A stretch of 64,000 bases of DNA from Draconibacterium sediminis (GTDB lineage Bacteria; Bacteroidota; Bacteroidia; Bacteroidales; Prolixibacteraceae), in the NCBI RefSeq assembly GCF_000949475.1, contig NZ_JRHC01000005.1:62001-126000 (forward strand), in the 5' to 3' direction. Positions 37,778-41,840 of this stretch are shown one piece after another. Below the pieces are notes generated by a model. That model ran no database searches and was not told the DNA's origin. It saw only the letters and a list, made by a program, of their open reading frames with translations. The position numbers and the translations under genes are program-made. How positions within the stretch are numbered: position 1 is the first letter of the stretch; every line of letters starts with the position of its first letter.

Positions 37778-39061
37778 ATGGCTTCAAGAACAAATCTTTC
37801 AGTTGTTATCGACATGGGAACCTCAAAAATGGTTGCGCTTGCAGGCCAGGCAACTGCCGAGGGGAAAATGGAAATACTGGGTACTGCCCAGGTGCCGTCG
37901 AAAGGCATAAAAAGAGGAATGATTTTTAATCTTGCAGATGCGACGGAGTCCATCACTGCAGTGTTGGAACAGTTGGATGCACAGCTCGAAGAAGAAATCG
38001 CGATTGTTGATGTGGCATACGCCGGAAAACGTATGCGAACCATCGATTACAAGGCTTCGCGTTTTACGGGCGAAGGCGGCGTGGTAACCAGTCTCGATAT
38101 TGACGAGTTGTACAATGAAGCGAAAAACCTGAAGATCAAAAATGATTACCGTATTCTGAAAGTTATTCCAACTTCGTTTATTATAGATGATGAAACGGAG
38201 GAGCTAAAACCTGTTGGAGCCACAGGGAAAAAGATTGAAGCCCGTTACAAACTGGTGATTATGCCTGATCAGGAATACCAGATTTTGAACCGCGTTTTGG
38301 AAAGTGTTGGTGTAGAACTGGGTGAAGTTTTCCACTCGTCGCTGGCACTAGCAGAGGCCGCGCTTTCAAAACCTGAAAAGGAAATGGGTGGTGTGGTGCT
38401 CGATATTGGTGCCGGAACTACCAATCTGGCTATTTACTACGAAAATGCACTGGTACACACGGCTGTAATTCCGTTTGCCGGAGCAGTAATTACCAACGAT
38501 TTGAAAGTTGGTTGTTCTACATTTCTTGAAAAAGCGGAGTTGCTAAAAGTGCGTTACGGACAAGCTTTGGGCGACCAGATTAAAACAGAGGACACCGTAA
38601 CCATTGCCAAAAATAATGGCTGGGAACCAAAAGAAATCACCATCCGAAGTCTGGCGTATATTATACAGGCGCGTTTGGAAGAGATTGTAGATTGTGTAGT
38701 TGCCGAAATCGAAAGATCGGGAGTTGCCGATCGTTTGGGTACCGGAATTGTTCTGGCCGGTGGAACCTCAAATCTGGGACACATCATCACGCTGGTAAAA
38801 TTTCATACCGGTTTGGATGCACGCAGAGCACACCCCGTAATCCTTCCTGCAAACCGAAGGGAAGAAGCAAAAAATCCGGCATTCTTGACTGCATTGGGAG
38901 CGTTAAAACTTTCGATAGCACAAAATGTTGGAGAAGAAAGAACATTGCCCGAGCCAAAAGTGCACCGGAACGGACGTGGTTTAATGACCAACGTTAAAGG
39001 AGCTTTGCAAAGTGCGATCAACTTTTTTGGCGACGACAACGAAGACCTTGAATTCAATTAA
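37778..39061 (+). CDS. ftsA: Cell division protein FtsA
   Basis: A 427-residue actin-like ATPase that tethers FtsZ to the membrane. Phosphate-binding loop VVIDMGTSKMVALAG (about 9-23), LDIGAGTTNLAIYY (near 208) and VLAGGTSNLGHI (near 325) are the actin-fold motifs. The C-terminus (MTNVKGALQSAINFFGDDNE) contains an amphipathic stretch that fits the membrane-targeting helix. It is directly followed by the two ftsZ genes. Confidence 0.95.
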   Translation: MASRTNLSVVIDMGTSKMVALAGQATAEGKMEILGTAQVPSKGIKRGMIFNLADATESITAVLEQLDAQLEEEIAIVDVAYAGKRMRTIDYKASRFTGEGGVVTSLDIDELYNEAKNLKIKNDYRILKVIPTSFIIDDETEELKPVGATGKKIEARYKLVIMPDQEYQILNRVLESVGVELGEVFHSSLALAEAALSKPEKEMGGVVLDIGAGTTNLAIYYENALVHTAVIPFAGAVITNDLKVGCSTFLEKAELLKVRYGQALGDQIKTEDTVTIAKNNGWEPKEITIRSLAYIIQARLEEIVDCVVAEIERSGVADRLGTGIVLAGGTSNLGHIITLVKFHTGLDARRAHPVILPANRREEAKNPAFLTALGALKLSIAQNVGEERTLPEPKVHRNGRGLMTNVKGALQSAINFFGDDNEDLEFN

Positions 39062-39072
39062 AACAAAAAGAT

Positions 39073-40428
39073 ATGACCGAAGAATTAGCAAATTTTCAAT
39101 TTCCGAAGGCAGCATCATCAATTATTAAAGTAATTGGAGTTGGCGGTGGTGGTTGCAATGCGGTCAATCACATGTTCGAAGAGGGAATAACAGGTGTTGA
39201 TTATATCATCTGTAATACCGATTCGCAAGCCATGGACAATAGTCCTGTGCCGATTAAAATTCAGCTTGGAACCACATTAACAGAAGGACGGGGCGCCGGA
39301 AATAAACCTGAAAGAGGAGCCGAAGCCGCCCGCGAAAATTACGAAGACCTGAAAAAGGTGCTGGGTGACAATACAAAAATGTTGTTTATCGCGGCAGGAA
39401 TGGGCGGTGGAACCGGAACCGGAGCTGCTCCTGTAATTGCAAGTCTGGCCCGCGAACTCGACATTTTAACCATTGCGGTAGTAACCATTCCGTCGCCGGC
39501 CGAAGGAAATAAACGCCGTGCACAGGCCCAGGAAGGTATTGATAAAATGGCCGAATTTGTCGATAGTATGCTGGTGATCAGTAACGACAGACTGCACCAT
39601 ATTTACGGCGATCTGCCGGCAAGCCAGGCCTTTAAAATGGCCGACAACATTGTGTCAACAGCCGTTAAAGGAGTTGCCGAAATAATCACCGTACACGGAA
39701 ATGTAAACATCGACTATACCGATGTGGAAACGGTGATGCAAAAGAGCGAGGTGTTTATTATGGGTACCGGTTTTGCTACAGGCGAAGGCCGTGCAATGGA
39801 CGCCGTGAATGCCGCACTCGAATCGCCACTGTTGGATAGTAACGATATTTACGGAACAAAAAATATACTGCTGAATATTATCTCGGGAAGTGAAGAGATT
39901 CGAATTGGAGAGATTGGCGAAATAATTGAGTCGCTGCAGGAGAAAGCTGGTCAGGATGCCGATATTATCTGGGGTAATGGCTACGACGAGCGCCTTGGCG
40001 ACAAAATTAGTGTGACTATTTTGGCCACCGGTTTTGATACCAATCCTAACAAAGAATTGCAACCCGAAAAAGAGGTGCAAAACTTTAATCTCGACGATGA
40101 TTTGGAAGATTCTGTTGCCGAGCAGGAACCGATAAACGAAACGGCAGAGACCATTTATTCTGATTTATACGAAGAAAAACCATACGAGCCAGAGCCGGAA
40201 GAGGAAGAAACGATAATGTTTGTTCCTCCGCAACCAAAACCAAAAGCCAGGCCAAAATCCAAATCGACGGGTTTTGGCTGGAAGTCAAAAGAAAAGACCA
40301 AAACCAGGGAAAAGGCAGAAAAAAAGAAAGACGAGCCTGTTACTGAATCGAATATCGATAACTGGTTTTATAAAAATTTTGGCAGCAAGATTTTTAATGA
40401 CGGTGATGAAGATCAACCTCTTGATTAA
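39073..40428 (+). CDS. ftsZ: Cell division GTPase FtsZ, first copy
   Basis: A 451-residue tubulin-like GTPase. The GTP signature GGGTGTGA is at 111-118, and the T7 loop N212-I-D214-Y-T-D217 that completes the neighbour's active site is intact, so the protein should polymerise and hydrolyse GTP. The tail is unusual: after about residue 325 comes an acidic stretch, then a Lys/Arg/Pro-rich stretch (KPKARPKSKS near 390), then NIDNWFYKNFGSKIF and a final acidic end. No recognisable conserved C-terminal peptide of the IPAFLR type is present. The start is ATG at 39073, 11 bases after ftsA. Confidence 0.95.
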   Translation: MTEELANFQFPKAASSIIKVIGVGGGGCNAVNHMFEEGITGVDYIICNTDSQAMDNSPVPIKIQLGTTLTEGRGAGNKPERGAEAARENYEDLKKVLGDNTKMLFIAAGMGGGTGTGAAPVIASLARELDILTIAVVTIPSPAEGNKRRAQAQEGIDKMAEFVDSMLVISNDRLHHIYGDLPASQAFKMADNIVSTAVKGVAEIITVHGNVNIDYTDVETVMQKSEVFIMGTGFATGEGRAMDAVNAALESPLLDSNDIYGTKNILLNIISGSEEIRIGEIGEIIESLQEKAGQDADIIWGNGYDERLGDKISVTILATGFDTNPNKELQPEKEVQNFNLDDDLEDSVAEQEPINETAETIYSDLYEEKPYEPEPEEEETIMFVPPQPKPKARPKSKSTGFGWKSKEKTKTREKAEKKKDEPVTESNIDNWFYKNFGSKIFNDGDEDQPLD

Positions 40429-40451
40429 TAACACAAAACAGGGTGAAGAAA

Positions 40452-41840
40452 ATGGAAGATATGGCTGATTTTGTAATGGAAAAAACTCCTGGTGCCGCGA
40501 TTAAGGTAATCGGCGTTGGTGGCGGTGGCGGAAATGCCGTAAACCATATGTTTAAGCACGGAATTCGCGATGTGGATTTTGTAATCTGCAACACCGATGC
40601 GCAAGCGATGGAGGCAAGTGCTATTCGAAACCGGGTGCAGCTGGGTGCGTCATTAACCGAAGGACGCGGAGCCGGTAATAAACCGGAAGTGGGCAGGCAG
40701 GCGGCTATTGAAAACATCGAAGATGTAAAAAAGACCTTGTCGGAAAACACCAAAATGGTATTTGTAACTGCCGGTATGGGCGGAGGAACCGGAACCGGAG
40801 CCGCTCCTGTTATTGCACAGTGTTGTAAAGAGCAGGGATATCTTACTGTGGCCATTGTTACTATTCCGTTCCGTAACGAAGGGAAAAGACGCATAAAACA
40901 AGCCTACGAAGGCATAAAAGAACTGGCAACTTATGTTGATTCGTTGCTGGTGATCAATAATGAACGTATTCGAGAGATGTTTGGCGATTTTGGTATTTCC
41001 GAGGCCTTTGCCAAAGCCGATAATGTTTTGTCTACCGCCGCAAAAGGAATTGCCGAAATTATTACTGTGCCCGGATATATAAATGTTGACTTTGCCGATG
41101 TTGAAACCGTAATGCGAAAAAGCGGAATGGCGGTTATGGGAACCGGTGTGAGCGACGAAGAAGACCGGGCAGAAGATGCCGTGAGAAAAGCATTAAACTC
41201 GCCATTGTTGAATGACAATGAAATTCGCGGAGCACGAAACATTCTGGTAAATATCAACTCGGGAACTAAAGAGGTGACCATGGATGAAGTTGGCCGGATT
41301 ACTGATTATGTGCAAAACATGGCTGGTTTTGATGCCGATTTAATTTGGGGAAATGGTACTGATGAAAGCTTAGGTGATAAACTTTCGGTAACGGTTATTG
41401 CAACCGGATTTCCAACCAGTATTATTTCCGAGCTATCGGAGCAAAGCCAGCGAAAGGTGGTGTCGCACACACTTGAAAAAGAATCGGTATCGGTTACAAA
41501 AAATGTACATTTCTCAGAGCATAAAAACGAAGATAGCAGAAGTCAATCGTCTTTTGAGTTCAATGTTGAGAACAAAAATAGTAACGATGACGACGAATTC
41601 GAAACCTTGTATCCGATAACATCGCGTGAGCGCAGTAGTGTTGAGAAAGAAATTGATGTAAACGATTACGCCAACCTGAGCGACGACGATGTGGATGAGC
41701 TGGAAAATGTACCGGCTTTTAAACGTCGGAATATTCGCATTAACGATCCAAAATACAAACGAGACCGTTCGGGATATTCTGTAGATCGCGACAACCGTAT
41801 TTCAGACAGAAACAGTTATCTTCACGATAACGTAGATTAA
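40452..41840 (+). CDS. ftsZ: Cell division GTPase FtsZ, second copy
   Basis: A second complete FtsZ begins 23 bases after the first. ATG 40452 (MEDMADFV) is chosen, giving 462 residues; the frame also allows a GTG at 40443. The GTP signature GGGTGTGA is at 110-117 and the T7 loop N211-V-D213-F-A-D216 is intact. The core is clearly related to copy one but differs throughout, so this is an old duplication. The tail is long and acidic/polar and contains ENVPAFKRRN (418-427), a good match to the conserved FtsA-binding C-terminal peptide, followed by about 35 more charged residues. Confidence 0.95.
   Translation: MEDMADFVMEKTPGAAIKVIGVGGGGGNAVNHMFKHGIRDVDFVICNTDAQAMEASAIRNRVQLGASLTEGRGAGNKPEVGRQAAIENIEDVKKTLSENTKMVFVTAGMGGGTGTGAAPVIAQCCKEQGYLTVAIVTIPFRNEGKRRIKQAYEGIKELATYVDSLLVINNERIREMFGDFGISEAFAKADNVLSTAAKGIAEIITVPGYINVDFADVETVMRKSGMAVMGTGVSDEEDRAEDAVRKALNSPLLNDNEIRGARNILVNINSGTKEVTMDEVGRITDYVQNMAGFDADLIWGNGTDESLGDKLSVTVIATGFPTSIISELSEQSQRKVVSHTLEKESVSVTKNVHFSEHKNEDSRSQSSFEFNVENKNSNDDDEFETLYPITSRERSSVEKEIDVNDYANLSDDDVDELENVPAFKRRNIRINDPKYKRDRSGYSVDRDNRISDRNSYLHDNVD

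Follow-up and report, generated by a model that had tools for sequence, protein, structure and literature searches.

Tandem FtsZ proteins in Prolixibacteraceae: a canonical copy and a paralogue with a putative FtsA-like membrane-binding tail

The window analysed here, a stretch of 64,000 nucleotides from Draconibacterium sediminis (contig NZ_JRHC01000005.1 of assembly GCF_000949475.1, positions 62,001 to 126,000), carries two complete ftsZ genes in a row, 3' of ftsA. Our analysis indicates that the two proteins differ above all in their C-terminal tails: the downstream copy, Z2, bears the conserved peptide that is presumed to bind FtsA, while the upstream copy, Z1, is without this peptide and ends in a putative membrane-targeting segment that resembles the tail of FtsA itself. 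On balance we lean towards the reading that Z1 is a self-anchoring FtsZ which co-polymerises with an FtsA-anchored Z2, so that the pair would be a bacterial counterpart of chloroplast FtsZ1/FtsZ2. The usual account of bacterial division has one FtsZ and separate anchor proteins; nearly the whole of Prolixibacteraceae and several other Bacteroidales families appear instead to keep a second or third FtsZ with a built-in anchor next to ftsA. If true, chloroplasts and one archaeal lineage, for which such a division of labour has been reported, would be joined by an independent bacterial example. The pair would also offer a natural test of the dependence of the Z-ring on FtsA, so far approached with engineered chimeras of FtsZ and a membrane-targeting sequence (MTS).

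Results

Both open reading frames are complete, and the features of ftsA, Z1 and Z2 given here lie on the forward strand. Against TIGR00065, the NCBIfam FtsZ equivalog with a cut-off of 295.2 bits, Z1 (451 amino acids, 39073..40428) scores 349.9 bits and Z2 (462 amino acids, 40452..41840) scores 368.5 bits, and each is also above the Pfam Tubulin and FtsZ_C cut-offs; the start of Z2 was taken at an ATG, the listed reading frame beginning at a GTG at 40443. A PF00091 search of the 5.99 Mb genome (E up to 0.001) gave no FtsZ or tubulin match besides these two. The GTP-binding motif GGGTGTG is intact in Z1 (residues 111-117, 39403..39423) and in Z2 (residues 110-116, 40779..40799), as are both T7-loop catalytic aspartates (in Z1 D214 and D217, 39712..39723), and sequence comparison finds the same motifs, for either copy, in 15 of 15 Prolixibacteraceae rows used for the trees. 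As a side observation, in the family that we denote f23 the motif reads GKGTGTG in two of the four last copies of the tree set (f23 last copies being those of L098 and others), which sit on long branches.

The ratio of nonsynonymous to synonymous substitution rates (dN/dS) against four relatives is 0.056, 0.034, 0.091 and 0.072 for Z1 and 0.064, 0.043, 0.067 and 0.050 for Z2, with several dS values saturated. Both copies are under purifying selection, with strong constraint in the window's genus and near it, and neither looks like a pseudogene. A first-pass annotation of the window, which had described two complete FtsZs with intact GTPase motifs and dissimilar tails, was correct on all three points.

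The tails themselves are as follows. Z2 has the peptide ELENVPAFKRRN (residues 416-427, 41697..41732), recognised with a profile of comparison-set peptides and presumed to bind FtsA, and after it a 35-residue extension (41733..41837) that ends YLHDNVD. Z1 has a Pro/Lys-rich linker (residues 385-422, 40225..40338; 14 K/R and 5 D/E), poorly conserved in orthologues, behind which it ends NWFYKNFGSKIFNDGDEDQPLD, with no PAYxR-type peptide. Within this end we place a putative membrane-targeting segment, IDNWFYKNFGSKIF (residues 428-441, 40354..40395), suggested by conservation, amphipathicity and a low-confidence AlphaFold2 helix at 428-440, followed by an acidic tip, NDGDEDQPLD (40396..40425), a feature that FtsA tails share. 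The FtsA of the window has an amphipathic C-terminal tail of its own, ...GALQSAINFFGDDNEDLEFN.

The pair is widespread. Z1 is 99% identical to Z1 of Draconibacterium mangrovi, and among named strains the pair is present, for example, in Draconibacterium orientale, Maribellus luteus, Sunxiuqinia elliptica and Mariniphaga anaerophila. Across 140 Prolixibacteraceae genomes there are exactly two matches in 127, three in 3 (G377, G408, G421), one in 4 and none in 6; seven of the ten genomes with fewer than two are less than 90% complete, and the other three are drafts of 91-97%. A sample of 295 genomes of the order includes 25 with at least two matches, 4 of these being Prolixibacteraceae. The copies are adjacent in 13 of the other 21, namely in one genome each of f16, f70, f85 and f91 and in three each of f23, f32 and f106, and the three f32 genomes and the f70 genome have three copies apiece; the remainder have a distant, weaker extra match (f81, f42, f19, f61) or matches on separate contigs (f84, f47). 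Family-wide searches found two matches in 55 of 56 f106 genomes (17 genera; in G719 the second match is a contig-end fragment, and G747 has its two matches on different contigs) and in 11 of 12 f23 genomes, and three matches in 3 of 4 f32 genomes, while the genomes with no match in these searches are 60-81% complete. In other orders of the class, 282 of 283 genomes at least 90% complete have one match and one has none at E <= 1e-25, a level at which weaker extra matches are invisible. The layout ftsA-Z1-Z2 or ftsA-Z1-Z2-Z3 is found in Prolixibacteraceae and six further families, three of these by one genome each, and in 78 of the 80 tandem loci from these seven families the first copy has ftsA directly 5' of it; locus L058 begins within Z1, and in L199 ftsA was not detected.

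Tails were compared over the seven families, in 84 upstream copies, 78 last copies and 24 comparison FtsZs. The comparison set consists of 20 one-match genomes of the order, three named loci showing one ftsZ (genome copy number unchecked; two of them carry the labels Saprospiraceae and Flavobacteriia) and, included in error, L067, which comes from a genome that has two matches on separate contigs. Copies truncated 3' by a contig end (for example Z1 of L049 and Z2 of L042 and L210) were excluded, f91, f84, f47 and f81 were counted neither as upstream nor as last copies, and L218 and L045 appear to be the same record, leaving 83 distinct proteins among the 84 upstream copies.

The canonical peptide separates the copies. 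Among last copies 77 of 78 contain the motif P[AT][YFNHS]x[RK], as do 21 of 24 comparison FtsZs, whereas only 1 of 84 upstream copies (L051) matches, with a PTSTR inside the linker; the only miss among last copies (L056) is cut by masked sequence, and one of the comparison-set misses (L128) reads PAWKR. A canonical-peptide profile made from 19 comparison-set peptides exceeds 5 bits in 77/78 last copies, 1/84 upstream copies and 0/84 shuffled upstream tails. Recruitment of Z2 by FtsA would fit the closeness of its peptide to that of single-copy FtsZs. Most single-copy FtsZs of the order score better against Z2 than against Z1, which marks Z2 as the copy of canonical type. We also considered whether the Z1 tail could have decayed from an FtsA-binding peptide (compare IDNWFYKN with LENIPAYKR); this was rejected because the peptide profile cannot tell upstream tails from their shuffles, with 12/84 and 17/84 respectively above 0 bits.

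The 35-residue extension, which the first-pass annotation had listed among the traits of copy two, is ordinary for the order: the motif PA[YFNHSW]x[RK] occurs in 20 of 24 comparison FtsZs at a median of 47 residues from the end (range 11-54), and a VD terminus like that of Z2 in 15 of 24. Many FtsZs of the order (L117, L124-L127, L132 and others) have about 40-45 residues past the peptide with a conserved end like NSYLHDNVD, a second tail motif. A separate observation concerns part of f106 (L190, L191, L195, L196, L200, L206, L107-L109), where the last FtsZ is short, stopping just past the peptide, and FtsA is strongly diverged, scoring 31-87 bits against the window's FtsA (the L190 FtsA being a partial frame) as compared with 241-287 bits in L187-L189 and L201-L203 and intermediate scores elsewhere in f106; FtsA and Z2 may have changed together there.

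In place of the peptide the upstream copies have a few residues dominated by W, F, I and L, followed by an acidic tip, as in the window and in NGWFKGKFTKIFDNKDTPM of f106, GWIQTTLGDLFDSNDTKMK of f23 and the two upstream copies of one f32 genome, QKMIKFFDDDVD and GGWIQTTFDSLFDE. A tryptophan falls within the last 30 residues of 76 of the 84. FtsA proteins from this order have similar ends, and the final 12 positions hold a median of 4 acidic residues both in upstream copies and in FtsA, against 2 in last copies. Among 17 Z1 orthologues D429, W431, F432 and F436 are invariant, forming a conserved island on the C-terminal side of the poorly conserved linker. A profile built only from 22 FtsA tails of single-FtsZ loci exceeds 5 bits in 37/84 upstream copies, 0/78 last copies, 0/24 comparison FtsZs and 3/84 shuffled upstream tails; as a positive control it recovers 36/42 FtsA tails in Prolixibacteraceae and only 7/21 in f106.

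At the level of groups amphipathicity divides the copies in a similar way. When the highest helical moment is taken over the final 40 residues, its median is 0.60 in upstream copies and 0.62 in FtsA (n=107), against 0.32 in last copies, 0.35 in the comparison set and 0.41 in shuffled upstream tails. In a stricter test, which sets the last 30 residues of each protein against 200 shuffles, p <= 0.2 is reached by 53/84 upstream copies, 79/107 FtsA and 1/78 last copies. The mean moment at 100 degrees compared with 60 degrees, a wrong angle taken as control, is 0.62 vs 0.52 in upstream copies of f106, 0.59 vs 0.46 in upstream copies of the families other than f106 and Prolixibacteraceae, and 0.63 vs 0.38 in FtsA. 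The first-pass annotation had copy one co-assembling or held by some other anchor; the evidence is more specific than this, and points to an FtsA-like, putatively membrane-binding tail of its own.

A number of observations weigh against self-anchoring by Z1. The FtsA-tail profile exceeds 5 bits in just 15 of 43 Prolixibacteraceae Z1 tails, and a threshold of 0 bits does not discriminate (75/84 upstream, 63/84 shuffled). At p <= 0.05 the stricter amphipathicity test is passed by only 19/84 upstream copies (FtsA 40/107, last copies 0/78); the median p of Prolixibacteraceae Z1 tails is 0.20, and the moment of the window's own tail is 0.53. The preference for the helix angle is not sharp in Prolixibacteraceae Z1, where the mean moment at 60 degrees, 0.56, comes close to the 0.59 found at 100 degrees. 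The median net charge of the linker (residues -60 to -23) is +5 in Prolixibacteraceae, 0 in f106, -1 in f23 and -3.5 in f70. AlphaFold2 (alignments of 17 and 15 rows and mean predicted local distance difference test scores of 58.6 and 63.4 for Z1 and Z2) predicts the helix of the Z1 tail at a low confidence of about 48, and since the Z2 tail also receives low-confidence helices the prediction does not discriminate. Tandem copies occur in eight families, and in one of them, f91, represented by locus L106 of one genome, neither the usual peptide nor the FtsA-like tail is seen; the second of its copies is short and has a longer branch. Finally, the upstream copy of genome G764 (f106, locus L189) is interrupted by one in-frame TAA and read as a shorter, 383-residue frame, reflecting either decay or a sequencing error.

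The angle control and the linker charges lower our confidence that Z1 anchors itself and leave a docking role, discussed next, slightly likelier than before, and a basic linker as a general trait was discarded, holding for Prolixibacteraceae, f16 and f85 and failing in f106, f23 and f70. In the window's family composition accounts for much of the amphipathic signal and arrangement for a further part. The helix signal is clear at the level of groups and modest for each tail, and no single tail proves a helix.

Some of these points bear directly on an alternative in which the Z1 tail is a protein-docking peptide and the anchoring of Z1 is indirect, by way of another site on FtsA or of some partner specific to the lineage. 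We regard this as unlikely, though it deserves serious consideration. Canonical FtsZ tails are docking peptides, the four invariant residues of Z1 would equally suit a docking motif, and docking would sit well with the modest amphipathicity of individual sequences and with a helix angle that is not sharply preferred in Prolixibacteraceae. The tail varies from family to family, however (GWIQTTLGDLF, QKMIKFF, NWLKRKIGTLF), and yet always has a few hydrophobic residues together and an acidic tip, as a membrane helix would predict; moreover, it resembles FtsA tails rather than the canonical peptide.

Alternatively, Z1 could be a regulatory subunit that co-assembles with Z2 and tunes filament turnover in the manner of chloroplast FtsZ1, under whose influence FtsZ2 filaments become more dynamic, with the tail of secondary importance. 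This possibility, which we judge improbable, is compatible with self-anchoring and agrees with the GTPase motifs kept in both copies, and the difference in dynamics between the chloroplast proteins is reported, in the relevant passages of PMC12343686, to sit mainly in core regions. In our comparison, which looked mainly at the tails, it is the tail that differs most consistently between Z1 and Z2.

To date the duplication the first-pass annotation had proposed an FtsZ tree. Our trees drew on 15 of 30 Prolixibacteraceae loci (first tree) and on 15 of 44 (second tree), the second together with 12 of 23 f106 loci, 5 of 8 f23 loci and 16 single-FtsZ loci and leaving out f16 (very long branches in the first tree), f81 and f91. 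Z1 and Z2 of Prolixibacteraceae form separate clades, with SH-like approximate likelihood ratio (SH-aLRT) support of 99 and 100 in the first tree and 100 and 95 in the second and ultrafast bootstrap values of 100 and 99. As each copy is monophyletic in the family, the split between them is as old as the sampled Prolixibacteraceae.

Deeper relations are less clear. In a 96-row tree the approximately unbiased test does not reject a grouping of the 41 upstream rows, all of them, in a single clade (p-AU 0.738), the constrained tree being 16.9 log units above the free quick tree, nor is a clade of Prolixibacteraceae and f106 upstream copies (p-AU 0.873, constrained tree 28.6 units better); both groups were named after inspection of a first tree. 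Neither group appears in a more thorough LG+F+G4 search (1000 ultrafast bootstraps), in which the upstream clades fall in separate places, weakly supported. The deep cross-family branches are poorly supported, and we would claim neither one origin of Z1 nor several. Each of the two upstream copies in f32 groups with one of those in f70.

These results make it scarcely credible that the pair is a redundant recent duplicate or an assembly artefact with no functional meaning. Tandem duplicates are common in bacterial genomes, but two matches recur in 127/140 Prolixibacteraceae, 55/56 f106 and 11/12 f23 genomes, dN/dS is far below 1 in both copies, and the Z1 and Z2 clades of Prolixibacteraceae are separate at the ultrafast bootstrap values given above. 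The division of labour proposed by the first-pass annotation is well supported by a tail asymmetry that is family-wide and recurs in six further families, and by purifying selection on both copies.

Capture of the tail from the genome's own FtsA was also considered: upstream copies have a mean local score of 23.5 (n=81) against the FtsA of their own genome and 22.4 against those of other families, with no clear preference. Shuffled own tails score 18.1 (standard deviation 4.1), and the 95th percentile of the shuffles is beaten by 24/81 upstream and 4/75 last copies. Convergence would fit the FtsA-like tail as well as capture.

The surroundings are those of a division gene cluster. ftsA (427 amino acids, 37778..39061) scores 279.7 bits against TIGR01174, whose cut-off is 175.85, and ends 11 bases before Z1; to judge from spacing, ftsA, Z1 and Z2 are probably co-transcribed. 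Upstream of ftsA lie murG and murC, each above its curated cut-off, and an ftsW/rodA-type gene that scores under its cut-off. No NCBIfam model matched the gene between murC and ftsA, which from its position we take to be ftsQ. The genome has a single clear FtsA and elsewhere a second, weaker PF14450 match (55 bits) in a 341-residue frame. Profile searches of this genome gave zero matches for ZipA and nothing above the cut-off for SepF.

Several other loci are of interest in their own right. Three complete tandem ftsZ genes follow ftsA in L101, L102 and L103 (f32) and in L104 (f70), the first two with FtsA-like tails that differ in kind from each other and the third with the canonical peptide. 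Strongly diverged and mostly short (220-398 residues) FtsZ/tubulin-like genes, possibly mobile-element tubulins, occur in L111, L112, L113 and L114 (f81, f42, f19 and f61), on other contigs or distant from the main ftsZ. One f84 genome, 77% complete, has ftsA then ftsZ on each of two contigs (L226 and L115), which means either two ftsA-ftsZ units per genome or mixed strains. A second match is also present in G581 (f60).

Discussion

How could two FtsZs with such different tails work together? We propose that ftsZ was duplicated within the division gene cluster, giving two adjacent GTPases. Z2 would have retained the ancestral role, its C-terminal peptide held by FtsA, which itself bears a membrane helix. 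Z1 would have lost the peptide and would now hold the membrane directly through an FtsA-like end made up of a flexible linker (basic in Prolixibacteraceae), an amphipathic W/F-rich helix and an acidic tip. Most likely the two would co-polymerise, resulting in a Z-ring with two anchoring routes, through FtsA by way of Z2 and through the built-in anchor of Z1. Both membrane binding by Z1 and co-polymerisation are putative, the latter being drawn from the shared core. Many bacteria have, beside FtsA, a second type of Z-ring anchor, ZipA or SepF (PMC12583498); neither was found in the window's genome by the searches above, and Z1 may take this place.

A bolder combination of these ideas, possible but in our view doubtful as a whole, is that in several Bacteroidales families the Z-ring is a hetero-polymer of two FtsZs (in two families three) in which FtsZ itself is a membrane anchor. 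The arrangement would be convergent with chloroplasts and a natural counterpart of FtsZ-MTS, with a tail possibly derived from FtsA. One route to such a tail would be tandem duplication of ftsA-ftsZ followed by a deletion that fused the Z1 linker to the tail of the second ftsA. In the families with three copies the ring would then combine two differently tailed self-anchoring FtsZs with one FtsA-anchored FtsZ.

We found no description of the Bacteroidales pair in open-licence literature on two, tandem or duplicated ftsZ, and one may exist elsewhere. According to passages of a study of FtsZ evolution (PMC9871819), the few bacteria with two copies have the extra one outside the division and cell wall (dcw) cluster, a statement that the Bacteroidales tandem pairs do not fit; its two mentions of Bacteroidetes/Bacteroidota both concern placement in the tree. 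In PMC4164004 the passages on two FtsZs and on Bacteroidetes deal with plants and with an endosymbiont without FtsZ. The first-pass annotation had been wary of a pair that was both common among relatives and already described: close relatives do share the pair, while no description of it was found. Overall its interpretation appears right in outline and is partly supported, and the tail analysis makes the reading more specific and more readily testable.

Systems in which FtsZ comes in two forms, or binds the membrane by itself, offer useful comparisons. Engineered FtsZ-YFP-mts chimeras, in which E. coli FtsZ ends in an amphipathic helix, in one variant that of E. coli FtsA, are reported to bind membranes and to form rotating vortices, and the version with the FtsA tail covers supported bilayers more densely than that with the MinD tail (PMC7320174). 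A C-terminal amphipathic helix thus suffices for membrane binding by FtsZ. Those constructs are artificial, whereas here the tail is natural and stands alongside a canonical copy. A Mycoplasma FtsZ with a membrane-targeting sequence reportedly binds liposomes alone (Dutta et al. 2025, cited in PMC12583498); unlike the present case, no tandem pair is described in the citing passages.

Among paired FtsZs, that of Atribacterota (RT761) is reported to combine a conventional FtsZ with one whose extension is predicted to be amphipathic (PMC7736352), making it too a bacterial pair in which one copy is predicted to bind membranes by itself, but there the extension is N-terminal and its bearer is without an ftsA of its own, the other copy adjoining ftsA. 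In Odinarchaeota, as in our proposal, one of FtsZ1 and FtsZ2 binds the membrane by an amphipathic helix and the other through an adaptor (PMC12583498), although the helix of FtsZ1 is N-terminal and the adaptor is SepF, whereas here the segment is C-terminal and the putative adaptor is FtsA.

The closest known system appears to be the chloroplast pair, FtsZ1/FtsZ2 (FtsZB/FtsZA), in which FtsZ2 bears the peptide, FtsZ1 is a duplicate without it, and membrane association of Arabidopsis FtsZ1 through a C-terminal amphiphilic motif has been reported (PMC12343686). There as here, one paralogue has the C-terminal peptide and the other does not; the membrane partner that holds the peptide is ARC6 in chloroplasts, while the present pair is bacterial, lies in tandem 3' of ftsA in a division cluster and would have FtsA as its partner. 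We liken the two pairs by their tails, our trees containing no plastid or cyanobacterial sequence, and on this footing the Bacteroidales pair may be viewed as a bacterial analogue of chloroplast FtsZ1/FtsZ2.

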